From Bacteroidetes/Chlorobi group bacterium MS-B_bin-24 (GTDB lineage: Bacteria > Bacteroidota > Ignavibacteria > Kapaibacteriales > UBA2268), in assembly GCA_003731685.1 (NCBI GenBank), contig RCNO01000010.1, positions 7,100 to 41,346 on the forward strand: a stretch of 34,247 bases of DNA. The letters are read 5' to 3'. The notes under the pieces were generated by a model. The model was not told where the DNA came from, searched no databases, and saw only the letters and a program-made list of their open reading frames with translations. This document shows, piece after piece, positions 20,645-34,247 of this stretch (within the stretch, counting starts at the first letter, position 1; each line of letters opens with the position of its first letter). Position numbers and translations under genes: made by a program.

Positions 20645-22036
20645 TCAAAAATTTTTACTGATTTGTTTCAGCCAATCATCGATTTCGGGGATGCCGCCTT
20701 GGAAAATCAAGTAGGCATCGATAGGCTCGCGTTCGGTGATTTCCCCTGCAATAGGAGTTAGCATTATTTCCTTGATTTCTTCGGGCTTATTGGTTCTGCC
20801 CAACACCCAGCAAAGCTTCATATATGCTACTTCGGGAAGCATATTTGCTCCGGGGACAACCCCAAGCTCCATAATGTTTCGTCCAGTTTCGTAAACATAC
20901 ATTTGGACATAACCCCAAAGAGTTTGAACAGTCATAAATACAACGACTCCGCTATCTGTTGCCCGTCTCAATGCGGGATAAATCTGGCGATTCACGTGCC
21001 CTAATCCAGTTCCAGCAATCACAATTCCCCGATATCCATTATCCACGAGAGCATCAATAATATCGGGCTTCATATTCGGGTAGTAATAAATCAAAGCGAC
21101 TTTTTCTTCGAAAGCAAGTTGGAAGTTGAATTGCCTGTCCTTCCTTCGTTTATTGTAATCTTTTCGCAATGTTCGAATTTCATCGGCTTTGACGATTGCC
21201 AAAGGTATATCTCCAATGGTTCTGAATGTCGAACGATGCGATGAATGCATCTTCCGGACGCGTGTCCCTCGATGTAGAAGCCCGTAGTTGTCAGATGTTG
21301 GACCAAGGGCGCAAACCGAAACTTCCGCTATGTCGCTCTCGGCAGCAACTTTCACACTATTAATCAAATTCAATGGAGCGTCCGATGCAGGCCTGTCGCT
21401 CGAACGCTGCGATCCAACGAGCACAATAGGTATCGGAGGATTTTGGATAATGAACGACAACAACGCCGAAGTATAGTGCATAGTATCTGTTCCGTGGCCA
21501 ATTACAATCCCTTCATAACCCGCTTCGATATCGTTGGCAACAGCACTGGCAATTCCCATCCATTCTTCGGGTCCAATATCTTCGCTCAACACGCTGTATA
21601 ATTTTTGGGTTGTTAAGTTGCAGTAGTCAAAAAGTTTTGGCACAAAAGCATAAAGTTCTTCGGGTTCGAATGCTGGCACCACAGCCCCCGTCCGATAATT
21701 CATTCGGGAAGCAATAGTCCCACCAGTGCTAATCAATTTAACATTGGGTTTATCGGGGTCGAAAGGAACTTCTTGCTTTTGCAGAACCTGATGGTGTTCT
21801 ACTCTTTCTATGAACTCGATGGAGGTGATTTTCTCGACCGAAATCCCAATATTATAGCCAGAACGGAGCTTAACCACAATATGGCTATCGTCGGCAATTT
21901 CGCTTCGGGGGAGGATAATCCCAACGATTTCGTTGCCGTTTGCCTTGATTTTAACTTCGCTCCAAACCGAAACCCCAAACGATTTAAGAAGCGATAACGC
22001 TTTCCCTTTGTATCCTTTATATCCAGTTGCTTCCAT
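20645..22036 (-). CDS. gatD: Glutamyl-tRNA(Gln) amidotransferase subunit D (archaeal type)
   Basis: The glutaminase subunit of the GatDE amidotransferase, which makes Gln-tRNA(Gln) from Glu-tRNA(Gln). With ATG 22036 the product is 463 residues. An upstream in-frame TTG at 22063 would add 9 residues, so the ATG is preferred. The N-terminal ~85 residues form the GatD-specific beta domain (VWSEVKIKANGNEIVG..., VKLRSGYNIGI), absent from ordinary asparaginases. The asparaginase-like domain follows, with catalytic T106 (STGGTIAS), T183-D184 (GHGTDTMHYT) and K262 in HRGTRVRKMHSSHRSTF, the archaeal GatD signature. It overlaps the end of gatE by 20 bases on the same strand. GatDE is classically regarded as an archaeal hallmark; here it sits among bacterial genes. 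Confidence 0.93.
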   Translation of the reverse strand: MEATGYKGYKGKALSLLKSFGVSVWSEVKIKANGNEIVGIILPRSEIADDSHIVVKLRSGYNIGISVEKITSIEFIERVEHHQVLQKQEVPFDPDKPNVKLISTGGTIASRMNYRTGAVVPAFEPEELYAFVPKLFDYCNLTTQKLYSVLSEDIGPEEWMGIASAVANDIEAGYEGIVIGHGTDTMHYTSALLSFIIQNPPIPIVLVGSQRSSDRPASDAPLNLINSVKVAAESDIAEVSVCALGPTSDNYGLLHRGTRVRKMHSSHRSTFRTIGDIPLAIVKADEIRTLRKDYNKRRKDRQFNFQLAFEEKVALIYYYPNMKPDIIDALVDNGYRGIVIAGTGLGHVNRQIYPALRRATDSGVVVFMTVQTLWGYVQMYVYETGRNIMELGVVPGANMLPEVAYMKLCWVLGRTNKPEEIKEIMLTPIAGEITEREPIDAYLIFQGGIPEIDDWLKQISKNF

Positions 22037-23969
22037 TCTCTTTTTCCAACTTTTGTGCGACAAATTCTTTCACAGTTTTGCCTTCCACTCTACCCCGAAG
22101 AATTCGCATAATGTAGCCGGTGAGTATCTCTGCTCTCTTTTCGTTATGGTATATTCTGTTTTGGGATAAGAATTCCACTGCTTGATTATACGCCTGTTCT
22201 AATTCATCATTGGTTGCGGGATACAGATGGCTTGGAATTTTATCGCATTCACCTCTCATAGCAAATTCAATTGCACTAAAAACCCCAGTGCGAAGAATTT
22301 CCCCTTTCGAATACATTGCAAAAATTGTCCTTATTTGCTCATTGGTTAATACTTTCGTTTTCAATCCACGCTTTTCAAGGAAAGGCAAAAATTCTAAGAA
22401 AATTCTGACAATAAAATTTGGATGAATGCGAAATTTTTCGACCAATTCCTTAATGAGCAAATATCTATCGGAAGTACAAATTCTTTTGATTGCAGAAGGG
22501 GGGAAACCGAAAGCCTCGCACCATTTGACTCTATCGCTGAAACTTTCTTTTAGCTTCAGTCGAAGTCGCTCGACCCTACTTTTAGATATATTTATGTGGG
22601 GTAAATCTGTGTCGGGATACATTCGTTGTGGACCGGGAAGCACACGCTCGAAGGCAGTTGTTCCTTCGGGCAAAGCCCTTCGGCTTTCTGATGGAACCCC
22701 TATGGTTGCCTCGTATGCGCGATTTTTGATTTCTTCGATAGCAATTTGAACATCTTCGGGCGGCCCCCAAACAATTACGAAGCCATCGTTGCTTGTTGCA
22801 CCAATAAATTTCTTTGTCTTGTCGATTTCTTCGCGGGAAATAGTATTATCGATAATATCGGAAACAATGATGTTCGGGTAATCGGTTAGGCAAGCAATGA
22901 CTTTAACTCTTTCGGATATTTCTTGAGCGAATGTTGTATATCGCTGGGTGGGCCATTTCAAAAAGCCTGCCCAATTGGGCAGTTTAATGCAATAAACCTC
23001 ACCATTATTTTTTATTGCTTGCTGGATTGGATAAAAGAAAGTGTGCTTGAGAACATTGTGAAGGTCGTAAACTGTCGCTTTAAAATTCTCCGGGGTAATA
23101 TTCCTTGTATGCAAGGCATCGCGCAGACGAAGAAGGTTCCATTGCCGCAAAGCTTCGTTGTATCCCAGAATAGGTATTTTACTTATTTTATCGACCCCTT
23201 TGATTTCGCAGCGCTCGGAACCATTTATGCTTATATTCAAGTCCATTCGCAAAGTTCCGCTCCCTTTGCGAACTTCTCCGGTTGCCAAAAACTCATTTCG
23301 AATTGCCTCGGCAAATTCTTTTACTTCCTGGGGCGAAGTAAATGAGGGCTCGGTAACAATTTCAATCAAAGGGATGCCCAATCGGTCGGTGAAATATTCT
23401 CTAATATGATACTTGTCCGAAATCTCGCGTGCCGCATCCTCTTCCAATGTGATTTCGGGGAAATGGATTTTCTTCCCTTTGAACTCGTAAAACCCTTGAA
23501 GTCCAATCATAGCAGTGCGTTGATACCCGCTTGGAATACTGCCGTCCAGATGATACTTTCGGCAAACATAGATTTCATCGACAATCTTGGCGTTAAATTT
23601 CAAACAATAATATATTGCAATATCAAGAGCATCTTGATTGATTTCAAATGGGGGACTCTGGTCGAGTTCGTATGTGCAAATTGTATCGCGATTTATCTTG
23701 TAAATAATTTGCTTTTGACTTTTAAACTCCATAAGAATCGAGGGGTCTATTTCCCCAAGCTCCGACAAGGCAGGTCGAAGCGTTCGAGCAATTTCAATAT
23801 GAAAAAAATCGTCGTATGGCGGATGGGGGGCTGGACACCGACAAAACAACTTCTGGCGAGTATCCAACTGCTGATGGATTTCCAACCCCGCCCGAAAACC
23901 TATCGCCCTATAATCATTTTCCGTTATCTCTTCAAAATCTTTGAACAACAAAGTACTCATAATTGCCAT
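22017..23969 (-). CDS. gatE: Glutamyl-tRNA(Gln) amidotransferase subunit E (archaeal type)
   Basis: The kinase/transamidase subunit of GatDE, which phosphorylates and amidates the glutamyl group on tRNA(Gln). The 650-residue length and motifs fit GatE, not the ~480-aa GatB: GLEIHQQLDT (28-37), LFCRCP (41-46), YHLDGSIPSGYQRTAMIG (139-155), RKGSGTLRMDLNISI (234-248), an AspRS-like insertion domain (about 290-420), and ESRRALPEGTTAFERVLPGPQRMYPDTDLP (428-457), the GatE-specific block. A helical YqeY-like tail follows. Start: ATG 23969 gives MAIMSTLL; the next ATG at 23960 is 20 nt from the -7 box at 23981-23988, the same distance as at several other genes here, so it may be the true start. It is followed by, and overlaps, gatD. 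Confidence 0.95.
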   Translation of the reverse strand: MAIMSTLLFKDFEEITENDYRAIGFRAGLEIHQQLDTRQKLFCRCPAPHPPYDDFFHIEIARTLRPALSELGEIDPSILMEFKSQKQIIYKINRDTICTYELDQSPPFEINQDALDIAIYYCLKFNAKIVDEIYVCRKYHLDGSIPSGYQRTAMIGLQGFYEFKGKKIHFPEITLEEDAAREISDKYHIREYFTDRLGIPLIEIVTEPSFTSPQEVKEFAEAIRNEFLATGEVRKGSGTLRMDLNISINGSERCEIKGVDKISKIPILGYNEALRQWNLLRLRDALHTRNITPENFKATVYDLHNVLKHTFFYPIQQAIKNNGEVYCIKLPNWAGFLKWPTQRYTTFAQEISERVKVIACLTDYPNIIVSDIIDNTISREEIDKTKKFIGATSNDGFVIVWGPPEDVQIAIEEIKNRAYEATIGVPSESRRALPEGTTAFERVLPGPQRMYPDTDLPHINISKSRVERLRLKLKESFSDRVKWCEAFGFPPSAIKRICTSDRYLLIKELVEKFRIHPNFIVRIFLEFLPFLEKRGLKTKVLTNEQIRTIFAMYSKGEILRTGVFSAIEFAMRGECDKIPSHLYPATNDELEQAYNQAVEFLSQNRIYHNEKRAEILTGYIMRILRGRVEGKTVKEFVAQKLEKENGSNWI

Positions 23970-31049: not shown

Positions 31050-34000
31050 TTATTTCGCAATAACAACTTTCACAATCTTTGAGTAATTACCCGCAAGCAT
31101 TCGCAAAGCATAGACTCCCGAAGAGATTTGTTCTGTCGAAATTTGAATTGCATACTTCCCGCTTTTCACAACTTCGCTCAATATTGGAATTACTGCCCCA
31201 GTCTCGAGATTGATGAGGTCTAATTTCGTGTAGCCATCGAATCCGACACCGAAACCGACCTCAAAGCTGGAAGTACTAACAGGATTTTGGTTCATCTCAA
31301 GGTAATAATCGGTCAAAGCAATTTCGATAGGTCTTATATCGACAACGCAAGTATTTATGACAATGAAGCAAGTATCGCCCGAAGGAACCACGCACTTGTC
31401 GCGGTCGTGGAAAGTGATATTGTCGATGTATGGACGGAAAATTTTGGCATCGGTTAACATCAACAGCATAGTCGGTCGGGCTAATTCACCATCGCCACTG
31501 ATTGGATTCTTTCCACTTCCCTGAATGTGCAACTTAGTATAGGTCTCATCAATTCTATTTTCGGTTGCCGAGATTGTCCAAGTATTATCAAGAATAGCGC
31601 CCTTTTCAATCGAAATGTATTTAAGCCAGTCTGTTTTGTAAATAATATCATATTCAAATGATGTTATCCCAGCATCGCGCCAATTTTTCGAAGCAGCAGT
31701 AGTTGTCAATACAATATTAAGGCCGGGAGCAAGATGCAAATCGGCATCAAAGTCTCTTAACGTAAGTTTAACGGGGACATCGTAGCCAACACCAACAAGT
31801 TCGACATAATAATTGTTGCCTACATCACTGAAGACACGCAGCAAAGCACGGAAATTGCCTGTTTTATCGGGCGAGAACTTAACTTTTACTTTGACTGAAC
31901 TTTGTTGTGTTATAGTTAGCGGGAAAGTAGCACCAACAAGTTCAAAATTGGCAACATTTCCCGAAACAAATACAACACTATCAATAATCGCTGGAGTTGT
32001 GGAACTCGTGTTTGTAATTGTAAACTCTTTAATAGGTTCATCGCAAAGAAGGACAAGACCATAATTTATAGAATCGACGACAATTCCCTTTTCGATGCCA
32101 TAACCAATAACTTCGGTGCGTGTGGTAATAATCGAATCTGGGGCGGGCGAAGCATCGTTAACAACATCAACATAAGCAAGTCGTTTGTTCACAGCCTTCG
32201 GAGTAAAGCGAACAGGAAGCACCAAAGAATCGCCCATCGGAAGAGTAATTTTCGTCGGAGGTGGTGTAACCCAAACGAACTCGTTCAAATTATTTTGATT
32301 CCAGTTGATTGACTCGATATACAAGTCTGCACTTGAACTGGTAGATTTAATTACAACAGAGCCAACGTCTGGATGCTGTGTTCCAACGAGAACGGGCGGT
32401 TGAAATTCGTAGCCTCGCACCTCGATTTTCGGCAAATAGCCATAGCCGTGGAGGCTTCCAACAACACTTCCCGGCTCGATGTTGTCGTCGGGATGAAACT
32501 CCGGAACGACTGTATTATTATGGTCGAATTCATCCTTTGGTTCATAAAGAATTGTTATTTCAATTTGGCGAACACCAGAAGTTCCCGACTCGGGCATCAA
32601 ATCAACAGGTGCACCGGGAGTTGGCTCCGGAACTATGCCACCGGGTTTGATACGGAAATGCGGACTATTCGCACCAAGTTTGATGTCGGTAACCCGAACT
32701 TTTGAAGTACCAGAGTTACGCAAATATACTTTTCCTTCGTTCGAAGTACCAACGCGTCGGCGCTGCCAATCGTAATCGGTAATATATGGACCCGGCTGAA
32801 TCCCAACCCCAGTCCAGTTGGAAATACTATCACCGCTTCCAGCATTACTATGGAACAGAACATCGATTGAATAATCGCCTACTGATTGCGGTTCGAAACA
32901 AGGAGTTTCCAAGTAAACGGTTCCACCGGGTGGAATAACAATGTCCAAAGGTGGTACAAATGGTGAAGATAATGAGAATGGCAACGTAACACCATCTATT
33001 CCATCAATAATCAATGTATCGGTGCCTGGATTTTGAATTCTCAAACCAGTGCCTGTTTGCTGAAGTTTACAAACTTTCCTCTTAACAACAACTTGTCCGG
33101 CATTCCAATCTTCAACAATGATTTTGGGTATCACTCCTCTTCCCATAACAGGAACGGTGAATGTATCGCAGTCCGTTACTGCCACAAGGGTATCCAAATC
33201 AAGCATCGTTGGACTTAATGATTCATTAGTTGGGGTATATTCTATTGTAATGGTATGGGATTCTTTGGGTTGGAGAATTATTTCGGGTGGGACGTTTCCA
33301 CTAACAATTTTAAAAGCTTCGCCTCGCTTCAAAAAGACGGAAACGACGTTTTCGAGGGTATCCGATATGTTAGTTATTTGCGCATCCAATCTCTTGGAAG
33401 TAAATAATCTAACTTTTCCAAAATTAATTGGGGAGGGTTGGATAAGAAGTGTGTCGGGATAGAAATATAATGTATCGTATGCAATGTTTCCAGCTCTGTC
33501 GGTAATTTGTAAGTATGCAACGCCGGGCTTGTTTTTATCAATAACCTTGACAATGAAAGTGTAATCATACAGCGGCGGATATGTTTTAAATTCCCTAATA
33601 AATTTTATCTCGAAATTGTAAGAACTATCGAGCAGAGAAATATCGTTCACACCTTGGTCAACCTGGCGAGGGTCGTCTCCGGGTTTGCCATTACGCAATT
33701 CAGTGGTTCGAATGGTGAACACGCCGCAGTGTTCTTGCACGAAAATTTCTGGCGGGAGTGTGTCCGTTTCATCGACTTTGTTGAATGCAGTGCAAGCAGG
33801 CCAGCCGTAGCCATCTGCCTCGCTGAAACCATAAATATAACCACCAAACTTGGTCTGGCTCCGAACCACGTGTGTACCGGGCTGAACCCTTAATTTTGCC
33901 CAATACAAATCAGTTCCGGGAATTCGATTGAACAGAAACTTAGGTTCCAACTGCCATATCGGTTTTCCATCGAGCGTAATAGATTTAAGCAATTTGTTCT

Positions 34001-34247
34001 CGGGGTCATTTGGATCTCCAATTGCAATTATGTTGAAGTAGTTATCCAAAAACTGAGCCTGCTCGGCTGGTGTTTGAAACACAGTGTTGGGAACGTATTG
34101 TTCGCGAGGAATAACCAAAATCATAAATGGGTCGAACTCTGGAGCGTTATCCCAATCCGTAGAATAGGAATATTGCATAACCAAAACAGGTTTGTCAGCT
34201 TCCCACACCGAGGTTCCTTTGATTGATTCCTGATTATTAGGTTGCCC
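31050..34247 (-). CDS. Large T9SS-secreted surface protein with Hydin/choice-of-anchor-D repeats (N-terminus outside window)
   Basis: The frame stays open to the right edge, so at least 1065 C-terminal residues are encoded and the signal peptide is missing. The visible part begins with an IgGFc-binding-like domain: SVWEADKPVLVMQYSYSTD, then GTHVVRSQTKFGGYIYGFSEADGYGWPA. About five immunoglobulin-like ASPM-SPD-2-Hydin (choice-of-anchor D) repeats follow, recognisable by PINFGKVRLFTSK, ITNISDT, FKIVSGNVPPEI, ITIEYTPTN and the later INYGLVLLCDEPIKEFTITNTSS. Then comes a cohesin-like stretch (SFEYDIIYKTDWLKYISIEKG region) and a C-terminal T9SS sorting domain (MNQNPVSTSSFEV to GVYALRMLAGNYSKIVKVVIAK). 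It is probably a surface-attached adhesin-like or matrix protein; function is not readable. A GTG at 34208 could be mistaken for a start, but coding sequence continues upstream of it. Confidence 0.85.
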   Translation of the reverse strand, partial: GQPNNQESIKGTSVWEADKPVLVMQYSYSTDWDNAPEFDPFMILVIPREQYVPNTVFQTPAEQAQFLDNYFNIIAIGDPNDPENKLLKSITLDGKPIWQLEPKFLFNRIPGTDLYWAKLRVQPGTHVVRSQTKFGGYIYGFSEADGYGWPACTAFNKVDETDTLPPEIFVQEHCGVFTIRTTELRNGKPGDDPRQVDQGVNDISLLDSSYNFEIKFIREFKTYPPLYDYTFIVKVIDKNKPGVAYLQITDRAGNIAYDTLYFYPDTLLIQPSPINFGKVRLFTSKRLDAQITNISDTLENVVSVFLKRGEAFKIVSGNVPPEIILQPKESHTITIEYTPTNESLSPTMLDLDTLVAVTDCDTFTVPVMGRGVIPKIIVEDWNAGQVVVKRKVCKLQQTGTGLRIQNPGTDTLIIDGIDGVTLPFSLSSPFVPPLDIVIPPGGTVYLETPCFEPQSVGDYSIDVLFHSNAGSGDSISNWTGVGIQPGPYITDYDWQRRRVGTSNEGKVYLRNSGTSKVRVTDIKLGANSPHFRIKPGGIVPEPTPGAPVDLMPESGTSGVRQIEITILYEPKDEFDHNNTVVPEFHPDDNIEPGSVVGSLHGYGYLPKIEVRGYEFQPPVLVGTQHPDVGSVVIKSTSSSADLYIESINWNQNNLNEFVWVTPPPTKITLPMGDSLVLPVRFTPKAVNKRLAYVDVVNDASPAPDSIITTRTEVIGYGIEKGIVVDSINYGLVLLCDEPIKEFTITNTSSTTPAIIDSVVFVSGNVANFELVGATFPLTITQQSSVKVKVKFSPDKTGNFRALLRVFSDVGNNYYVELVGVGYDVPVKLTLRDFDADLHLAPGLNIVLTTTAASKNWRDAGITSFEYDIIYKTDWLKYISIEKGAILDNTWTISATENRIDETYTKLHIQGSGKNPISGDGELARPTMLLMLTDAKIFRPYIDNITFHDRDKCVVPSGDTCFIVINTCVVDIRPIEIALTDYYLEMNQNPVSTSSFEVGFGVGFDGYTKLDLINLETGAVIPILSEVVKSGKYAIQISTEQISSGVYALRMLAGNYSKIVKVVIAK

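Follow-up and report, generated by a model that had tools for sequence, protein, structure and literature searches.

The window, by which we mean the whole 34,247-nucleotide stretch analysed here, comes from contig RCNO01000010.1 of the draft genome of Bacteroidetes/Chlorobi group bacterium MS-B_bin-24 (class Ignavibacteria, order Kapaibacteriales). Its minus strand carries two overlapping genes, gatE and gatD, encoding the two subunits of a predicted Glu-tRNA(Gln) amidotransferase, GatDE. An earlier note on this DNA had recognized both genes and their 20-base overlap in a bacterial genome, and curated family models together with the coordinates of the open reading frames (ORFs) confirm, at the level of sequence, that the locus is a genuine GatDE operon with two complete subunits. 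A 2022 review treats GatDE as now confined to archaea and all known archaea as lacking GlnRS (PMC9499178), and a 2020 review likewise describes GlnRS as absent from archaeal genomes (PMC7373986). No report of GatDE in bacteria was found in the titles or abstract openings of the open-access literature searched, and automatic annotation may already label such bacterial genes. In the list below, "type II" is the name that we propose for a second GatDE subfamily, found in bacteria and some Thermoplasmatota.

22017..23969, minus strand: gatE (type II), Glu-tRNA(Gln) amidotransferase subunit E, 650 amino acids (TIGR00134; conserved columns; AlphaFold2 model)
20645..22036, minus strand: gatD (type II), ammonia-generating subunit, 463 amino acids from the ATG at 22036 (TIGR02153; GatD_N; alignment)
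22017..22036, minus strand: overlap of the gatE and gatD frames, 20 bases (ORF coordinates)
22680..23117, minus strand: AspRS-like insertion in the GatE catalytic domain, residues 285-430, limits approximate (Pfam and structure matches)
22047..22448, minus strand: GatE helical/tail region (GatB_Yqey, PF02637), residues 508-641 (Pfam)
23874..23876, minus strand: GatE H32 (M. thermautotrophicus H15), GatE/GatB core (alignment; catalytic role presumed)
23442..23444, minus strand: GatE E176 (M. thermautotrophicus E157), GatE/GatB core (alignment; catalytic role presumed)
23361..23363, minus strand: GatE E203 (M. thermautotrophicus E184), GatE/GatB core (alignment; catalytic role presumed)
21716..21718, minus strand: GatD T107, catalytic Thr of the STGGT motif (alignment; role presumed)
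21485..21490, minus strand: GatD T183-D184, HGTDT motif (alignment; role presumed)
21251..21253, minus strand: GatD K262, RVRKMH motif (alignment; role presumed)
20648..20731, minus strand: GatD C-terminal extension typical of type II, residues 436-463 (alignment)

GatE exceeds the thresholds of both of its NCBIfam equivalog models (TIGR00134, 420.7 bits against a cut-off of 319.55; NF003107, 513.5 against 456), and the best GatB model gives 135.3 bits, far under its cut-off of 338. GatD exceeds those of its own models (TIGR02153, 519.7 against 324; NF003217, 521.4 against 310) and contains the GatD_N domain (PF18195, 60.9 against 25.7). It also exceeds the cut-off of TIGR00519, a wider subfamily model for type I asparaginases (399.3 against 260.5), and the type II asparaginase model is not reached (161.5 against 314.3). 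An alternative start for gatD is the TTG at 22063 on the minus strand, and the order gatE then gatD is kept in most relatives. The AlphaFold2 model of GatE (pLDDT 87.9) finds its best Protein Data Bank (PDB) matches in GatE of P. abyssi (1zq1_C) and M. thermautotrophicus (2d6f), with GatB next, and the matches include a GatE solved with tRNA-Gln. The GatB_N family, a 277-position model, is spread across residues 27-466, and the matches of the structural model to AspRS are weak (E 1e-3 and above). On the tail, PF02637 (cut-off 27) scored 25.0 bits in one Pfam scan and 28.4 in the genome search; the region is predicted to be helical, with pLDDT mostly 84-94.

The active-site residues are intact in the sequences of both subunits. 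GatD T107, T183-D184 and K262, whose catalytic roles we assume from L-asparaginases, are unchanged in 16 of 16 aligned GatD sequences, the window among them; the asparaginase-type set described earlier is thus present, with its first residue, numbered from the ATG, at T107 rather than T106. In GatE, we take H32, E176 and E203 to be the catalytic residues. The window protein retains 34 of 35 core columns, chosen because they show no variation among three GatB and reach a conservation of 95% or more among 27 type I GatE. The sole exception is residue 99, which is T in most type II proteins as well. A count of 34/34 depended on agreement of the type II majority, and 34/35 is the unconditioned figure.

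The source genome (G000) is a 2.6 Mb draft in 109 contigs, 98.8% complete with an estimated contamination of 4.66%, and such figures could favor an archaeal contaminant or a chimeric join as the origin of the locus. This explanation is refuted by synteny with a genome of the same genus (G357), where gatDE adjoins the same MacB-like operon, six neighboring ORFs are 58–78% identical, and the only insertion between gatDE and that operon is one extra exonuclease-like ORF. The two GatE proteins are sisters with a support of 100 in the GatB-rooted tree described below, and GatE scores over its cut-off in 30 of 395 genomes sampled from the phylum, all in the class of the window. We therefore consider the chance of a chimera negligible, and the earlier opinion that contamination was unlikely is borne out. 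The flanks were correctly described in part: murD passes TIGR01087, and the MqnA-like ORF is supported by Pfam (VitK2_biosynth, 32.2 against 26) with no NCBIfam model passed. The exporter, encoded by a MacB-like ABC operon, stays under the MacB equivalog cut-off.

The earlier note also proposed searching the rest of the genome for gatA, gatB, glnS and an asparagine route, and related genomes for the locus. The locus is present in G357 and GatE elsewhere in the class, as described above, and the genome search recovered GlnRS and AsnRS. GlnRS is intact at 579 amino acids and scores 785.2 bits with TIGR00440 (cut-off 425.8); GluRS and AspRS are encoded as well. No Amidase-family protein (PF01425), and hence no GatA, was found, nor was GatB: in the genome profile search, which left GatC outside its scope, the GatB models matched GatE only. 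The genome additionally encodes a 320-amino-acid AsnRS-like protein (L007:1507-2469, G000:C9) that matches the C-terminal part only of the asnS model (137.6 against 342.6) and is perhaps an asparagine-synthetase-like AsnRS paralogue.

GlnRS and GatB were surveyed in 80 of the 98 listed members of the class. Among the 30 genomes with GatE, GlnRS is present in 27 and GatB in 22 (both, 19; GlnRS only, 8; GatB only, 3; neither, 0), and one genome counted as GlnRS only (G116) has a 124-amino-acid GatB fragment. GlnRS is more frequent in genomes with GatE than in those without (27/30 vs 27/50; Fisher p 0.001) and GatB is rarer (22/30 vs 46/50; Fisher p 0.048), in tests that ignore shared ancestry. 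GlnRS is also carried by two further genomes of the genus, of which one (G369) lacks GatE as well as GatB.

Bacterial GatDE extends well beyond this class. An alignment scan of GTDB species genomes with GatD confirmed at least 570 stretches, and the best 80 of these are 57–67% identical to the window GatD. In all but one of the 80 the record bears the name of a bacterium, and together these span many phyla (Ignavibacteria, Kapaibacterium, Bacteroidales, Aminicenantes, Calditrichota, Zixibacteria, Fermentibacteria, Planctomycetota, Cloacimonadota, Marinimicrobia, Myxococcota, KSB1 and Coatesbacteria among others, with a single strain of Clostridium tagluense); the remaining one is a Thermoplasmata archaeon. 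GatE was found at 68 of these 80 loci. Searches of plasmids for GatD relatives returned asparaginases only, and those of viral contigs no relatives. When the genomes of 50 of the 80 loci, one of them archaeal, were examined for other routes, GlnRS was over its cut-off in 38 and GatB in 16 (both, 11; GlnRS only, 27; GatB only, 5; neither, 7). The cultured Clostridium tagluense has GatDE and GlnRS, with no GatB match over the cut-off. Four of the seven genomes with neither show a fragment of one, and no fragment of either was found in the other three (G403, G407 and G409). G403 has no GluRS match either and is probably incomplete. In G409, a Neomarinimicrobiota genome (L092/L194-L196), GatDE is accompanied by two GluRS paralogues, and neither GlnRS nor GatB was found, which makes it the best candidate for a bacterium with GatDE only; the incompleteness of a metagenome-assembled genome (MAG) could possibly account for this pattern.

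Phylogenetic analysis places the window in the second subfamily, which is common in bacteria. Branch support is given as SH-aLRT values from quick searches. In a GatE tree rooted on GatB (site-mixture model, 76 hand-picked rows, three of six fetched GatB), type I comprised 27 archaeal rows (support 98) and type II comprised 11 Thermoplasmatota rows as well as 34 bacterial ones (99). A further branch (97) set the bacterial rows apart, and a long GatE row (L201, from G524) was left unplaced. With this root the window GatE lies outside the type I archaeal branch, and type II branches off deeply as the sister group of the canonical archaeal proteins. A second tree held 17 of the 30 class GatE, 65 named-locus rows with a GatE of at least 520 amino acids, every second archaeal locus (15 of 30), another 23 rows and two chains from the PDB. 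Rooted on the two archaeal PDB chains, it nested type II GatE within archaeal rows. The two rootings disagree, and the archaeal sample consists of Thermoplasmatota and the two PDB species, so that the ancient transfer from archaea proposed in the earlier note is one possible direction. In the GatD tree, all 17 type I rows fall on one side (100). The C-terminal extension of GatD follows the same division: the window has it, as do all 33 other bacterial sequences and all five archaeal ones labelled type II (one from G524), and the 17 type I sequences all lack it. At 14 GatE columns that separate the types, the window follows type II at eight, type I at two and neither at four. Three archaeal genomes (G423, G464 and G473) have both GatE types, and eight others, which the GlnRS search did not cover, yielded a type II GatE and no type I.

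Several loci link GatDE to glutamine and its tRNA. In one genome (G014) glnS adjoins gatDE in convergent orientation. In 12 extended archaeal gatE loci, tRNA-Gln was the only tRNA seen. At two type II loci both ARAGORN and Rfam call it, next to gatD in G461 and next to gatE in G616. At the G524 locus, that of the unplaced GatE row, ARAGORN only calls it, upstream of gatE, and a glutamate dehydrogenase gene also lies upstream there. Glutamine synthetase family genes stand beside gatDE in G616, G423, a Phycisphaerae genome and a Fermentibacteria genome; that of G616 passes the GlnA model and that of G423 scores 225.8, under the cut-off of 429.15. The tRNAs of the source genome offer a further link. 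Its tRNA-Gln(UUG) has an A1:U72 pair with G73, and its tRNA-Gln(CUG) has U1:A72; the 2022 review reports that archaeal GatDE recognizes A1:U72 and the D-loop (PMC9499178). The other five tRNA-Gln examined in the class have U1:A72, including both of those seen in each of two genomes with GatB (G132 and G314). These observations cover 39 of 46 tRNA matches in G000, 27 of 40 in G314 and 32 of 43 in G132, so that more tRNA-Gln genes are possible. The bodies of the two G000 isoacceptors (L232 and L249) are very different from each other; in G314 and G132 the UUG body varies and the CUG body is alike. A TTTGA pattern tried as a search string for tRNA-Gln found none, and the tRNA-Gln of G000 have G37.

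Protein divergence within the genus gives an idea of the constraint on GatDE. Between G000 and G357, GatE is 53% identical, GatD 72% and GlnRS 88–89%. The GatE/GlnRS distance ratio for this pair is 5.5, compared with a mean of 1.37 (standard deviation 0.41) for pairs without these two genomes, in a rate test of the 14 of 30 genomes for which all three genes were fetched. Mean ratios per genome are 2.22 for G000, 2.20 for G357 and 2.22 for G156, a member of another family. Synonymous sites were saturated in six of seven comparisons made for dN/dS. Judged from these sequences, GatDE seems to be kept intact, yet weakly constrained in the genus. It is also dispensable, given its fast evolution there and the sister species G369 without GatE.

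The explanation that we consider probable is that the locus specifies a working Glu-tRNA(Gln) amidotransferase that provides an accessory, indirect route parallel to GlnRS, most likely acting on tRNA-Gln(UUG). The Thr/Thr-Asp-Lys site of GatD would release ammonia from Gln or Asn, and GluRS would supply Glu-tRNA(Gln). GatE with ATP would activate the gamma-carboxyl of the Glu on tRNA-Gln and then amidate it to give Gln-tRNA(Gln), and the isoacceptor with A1:U72 would be the most likely substrate. We prefer this explanation because of the family models, the catalytic conservation, the match to tRNA-Gln-bound GatE, the presence of GlnRS, GluRS, AspRS and AsnRS here with no GatA or GatB found, the frequent coexistence with GlnRS across the class and other phyla, the links to Gln and its tRNA, the A1:U72 pair, and the eight archaeal genomes whose only GatE found is type II.

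Several points weigh against it. With GlnRS present, there is no evident need for a GatDE route, and the low identity of GatE is what would be expected of a weakly constrained gene. All-against-all clustering of 482 neighbor ORFs revealed no neighborhood conserved across bacterial gatDE loci. A Pfam scan of 179 of 251 neighbor ORFs, with short and redundant ones removed by hand and the top 25 families considered, gave as the families matched most often glutamine synthetase and S30AE, each in 3 of 85 ORFs of one set, and CoA-binding/Rex-like domains, in 3 of 94 of a second; the neighbor links to Gln are post hoc and few. The A1:U72 argument rests on one genome, and outside the order of the window the association of GlnRS with GatE is not significant (22/23 with GatE vs 26/33; Fisher p 0.12). 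The source GluRS has Arg at the position of Thermus Arg358, which would suggest an enzyme specific for tRNA-Glu. This mark proved uninformative, because Arg is found in 12 of 12 GluRS, including those of GlnRS-less and necessarily non-discriminating relatives.

Of the competing explanations, the most plausible is that GatDE is a relic being lost in the genus, formerly useful and now nearly neutral as GlnRS suffices. The distance ratio of 5.5, the absence of GatE from G369 and a PF02637 tail near the cut-off all fit this idea. However, G156 of another family equals the per-genome ratio, so the speed is not peculiar to the genus; both frames are open with their catalytic positions retained, and GatD is 72% identical despite saturated synonymous divergence. 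On balance we think a relic unlikely. It is somewhat less likely still that the enzyme has been repurposed as an ATP-dependent amidotransferase with another target, such as a different aminoacyl-tRNA or a metabolite. Its apparent redundancy with GlnRS or GatCAB in most hosts, the 14 columns separating the types and the GatD extension could be read in this way, but the window retains 34 of the 35 columns common to GatB and type I GatE, the neighbor links are to tRNA-Gln, glnS and glutamine synthetase, and no GatE but the type II form was found in eight archaeal genomes.

The suggestion in the earlier note that GatDE might be the only Gln-tRNA(Gln) route, and so essential, gains something from the failure to find GatA and GatB in G000 and, for other organisms, from the three genomes with no GlnRS or GatB seen, especially G409 with its two GluRS paralogues. 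In the organism studied here GatDE is not the sole route because GlnRS is encoded in the same genome. GlnRS is likewise present in both same-genus genomes, of which G369 does without GatE and GatB, and among the other organisms G403 is a poor witness. Unless the GlnRS encoded here is inactive, exclusive dependence of this organism on GatDE is thus refuted, and we judge it very improbable. A role in Asn-tRNA(Asn) formation is about as hard to credit, or slightly more so. GatB-kind amidotransferases can use Asp-tRNA(Asn), and the earlier note had envisaged GatDE kept alongside GatCAB for this purpose. However, AsnRS is encoded, no amidase-family gene or GatB was found to make up a GatCAB, and the best family match is to GatE, which is known to be specific for Glu-tRNA(Gln).

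The window enzyme resembles archaeal GatDE (P. abyssi 1zq1 and M. thermautotrophicus 2d6f) in its two subunits, GatD_N, asparaginase-type catalytic set, AspRS-like GatE insertion and conserved core residues. It differs in its type-determining columns, its GatD extension, the separate deep branch of type II (the two types having supports of 98 and 99) and the hosts of that type, for the most part bacteria and in most cases equipped with GlnRS. The GatB fold and 34 of 35 core columns are shared with bacterial GatCAB; unlike GatCAB, the system has no detected GatA, would draw ammonia from an asparaginase-like subunit and leaves GatB models far under cut-off. Window GatD passes the type I L-asparaginase subfamily model, but has GatD_N, the C-terminal extension and a gatE partner, in contrast to those enzymes. 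Coexistence with direct synthetases has a precedent: one paper lists Deinococcus, Thermus and Bdellovibrio as keeping GatCAB beside GlnRS and AsnRS (PMC4206432). Here GatDE takes the place of GatCAB.

One Thermoplasmata chromosome (L109/G423, CP070751.1; L190-L193, L274, L275) appears to break the rule that archaea lack GlnRS. It is a single 5.2 Mb contig that groups with a phylum in which GatE is over its cut-off in 163 of 194 sampled genomes, and its GluRS is archaeal-type (TIGR00463, 635.7 against 401.75). The GlnRS scores 755.4 (cut-off 425.8) and lies near an archaeal-type LysRS, both GatE types are in the same chromosome, and the glnS locus has three tRNA-Gln genes, all with A1:U72 and two with G73. 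A broader proposal, which we regard as speculative and rather doubtful, is that many bacteria and some archaea run GlnRS together with a type II GatDE specialized for certain tRNA-Gln isoacceptors (those with A1:U72), so that the two Gln codons are served by different chemistry. CP070751 would then be an archaeon in which GlnRS works alongside both its native GatDE and the type II enzyme, contrary to the rule of GlnRS absence from archaea. The rule that GatDE occurs only in archaea is broken by the spread of type II over many bacterial phyla, most often in cells that also have GlnRS, and this spread bears on where GatDE originated. The separation of GlnRS and GatDE by tRNA identity becomes directly testable, and Clostridium tagluense is a cultured host with both enzymes.

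A few further features were seen in passing. In an unclassified bacterial MAG, a tRNA-Glu(CUC) gene (L094:3802-3878), whose look we take to be reminiscent of archaeal tRNAs, precedes gatE by about 170 bases; a tRNA-Glu call by ARAGORN at another locus (L070) was set aside as lacking Rfam support. In G132, four tandem 114-base copies (L148:1430-1885) form a degenerate array that looks derived from tRNA-Pro and in which ARAGORN calls no tRNA. Elsewhere in the window, positions 31050-34208 on the minus strand encode a 1052-amino-acid protein with IgGFc-binding and Ig-like ASH/HYDIN domains.

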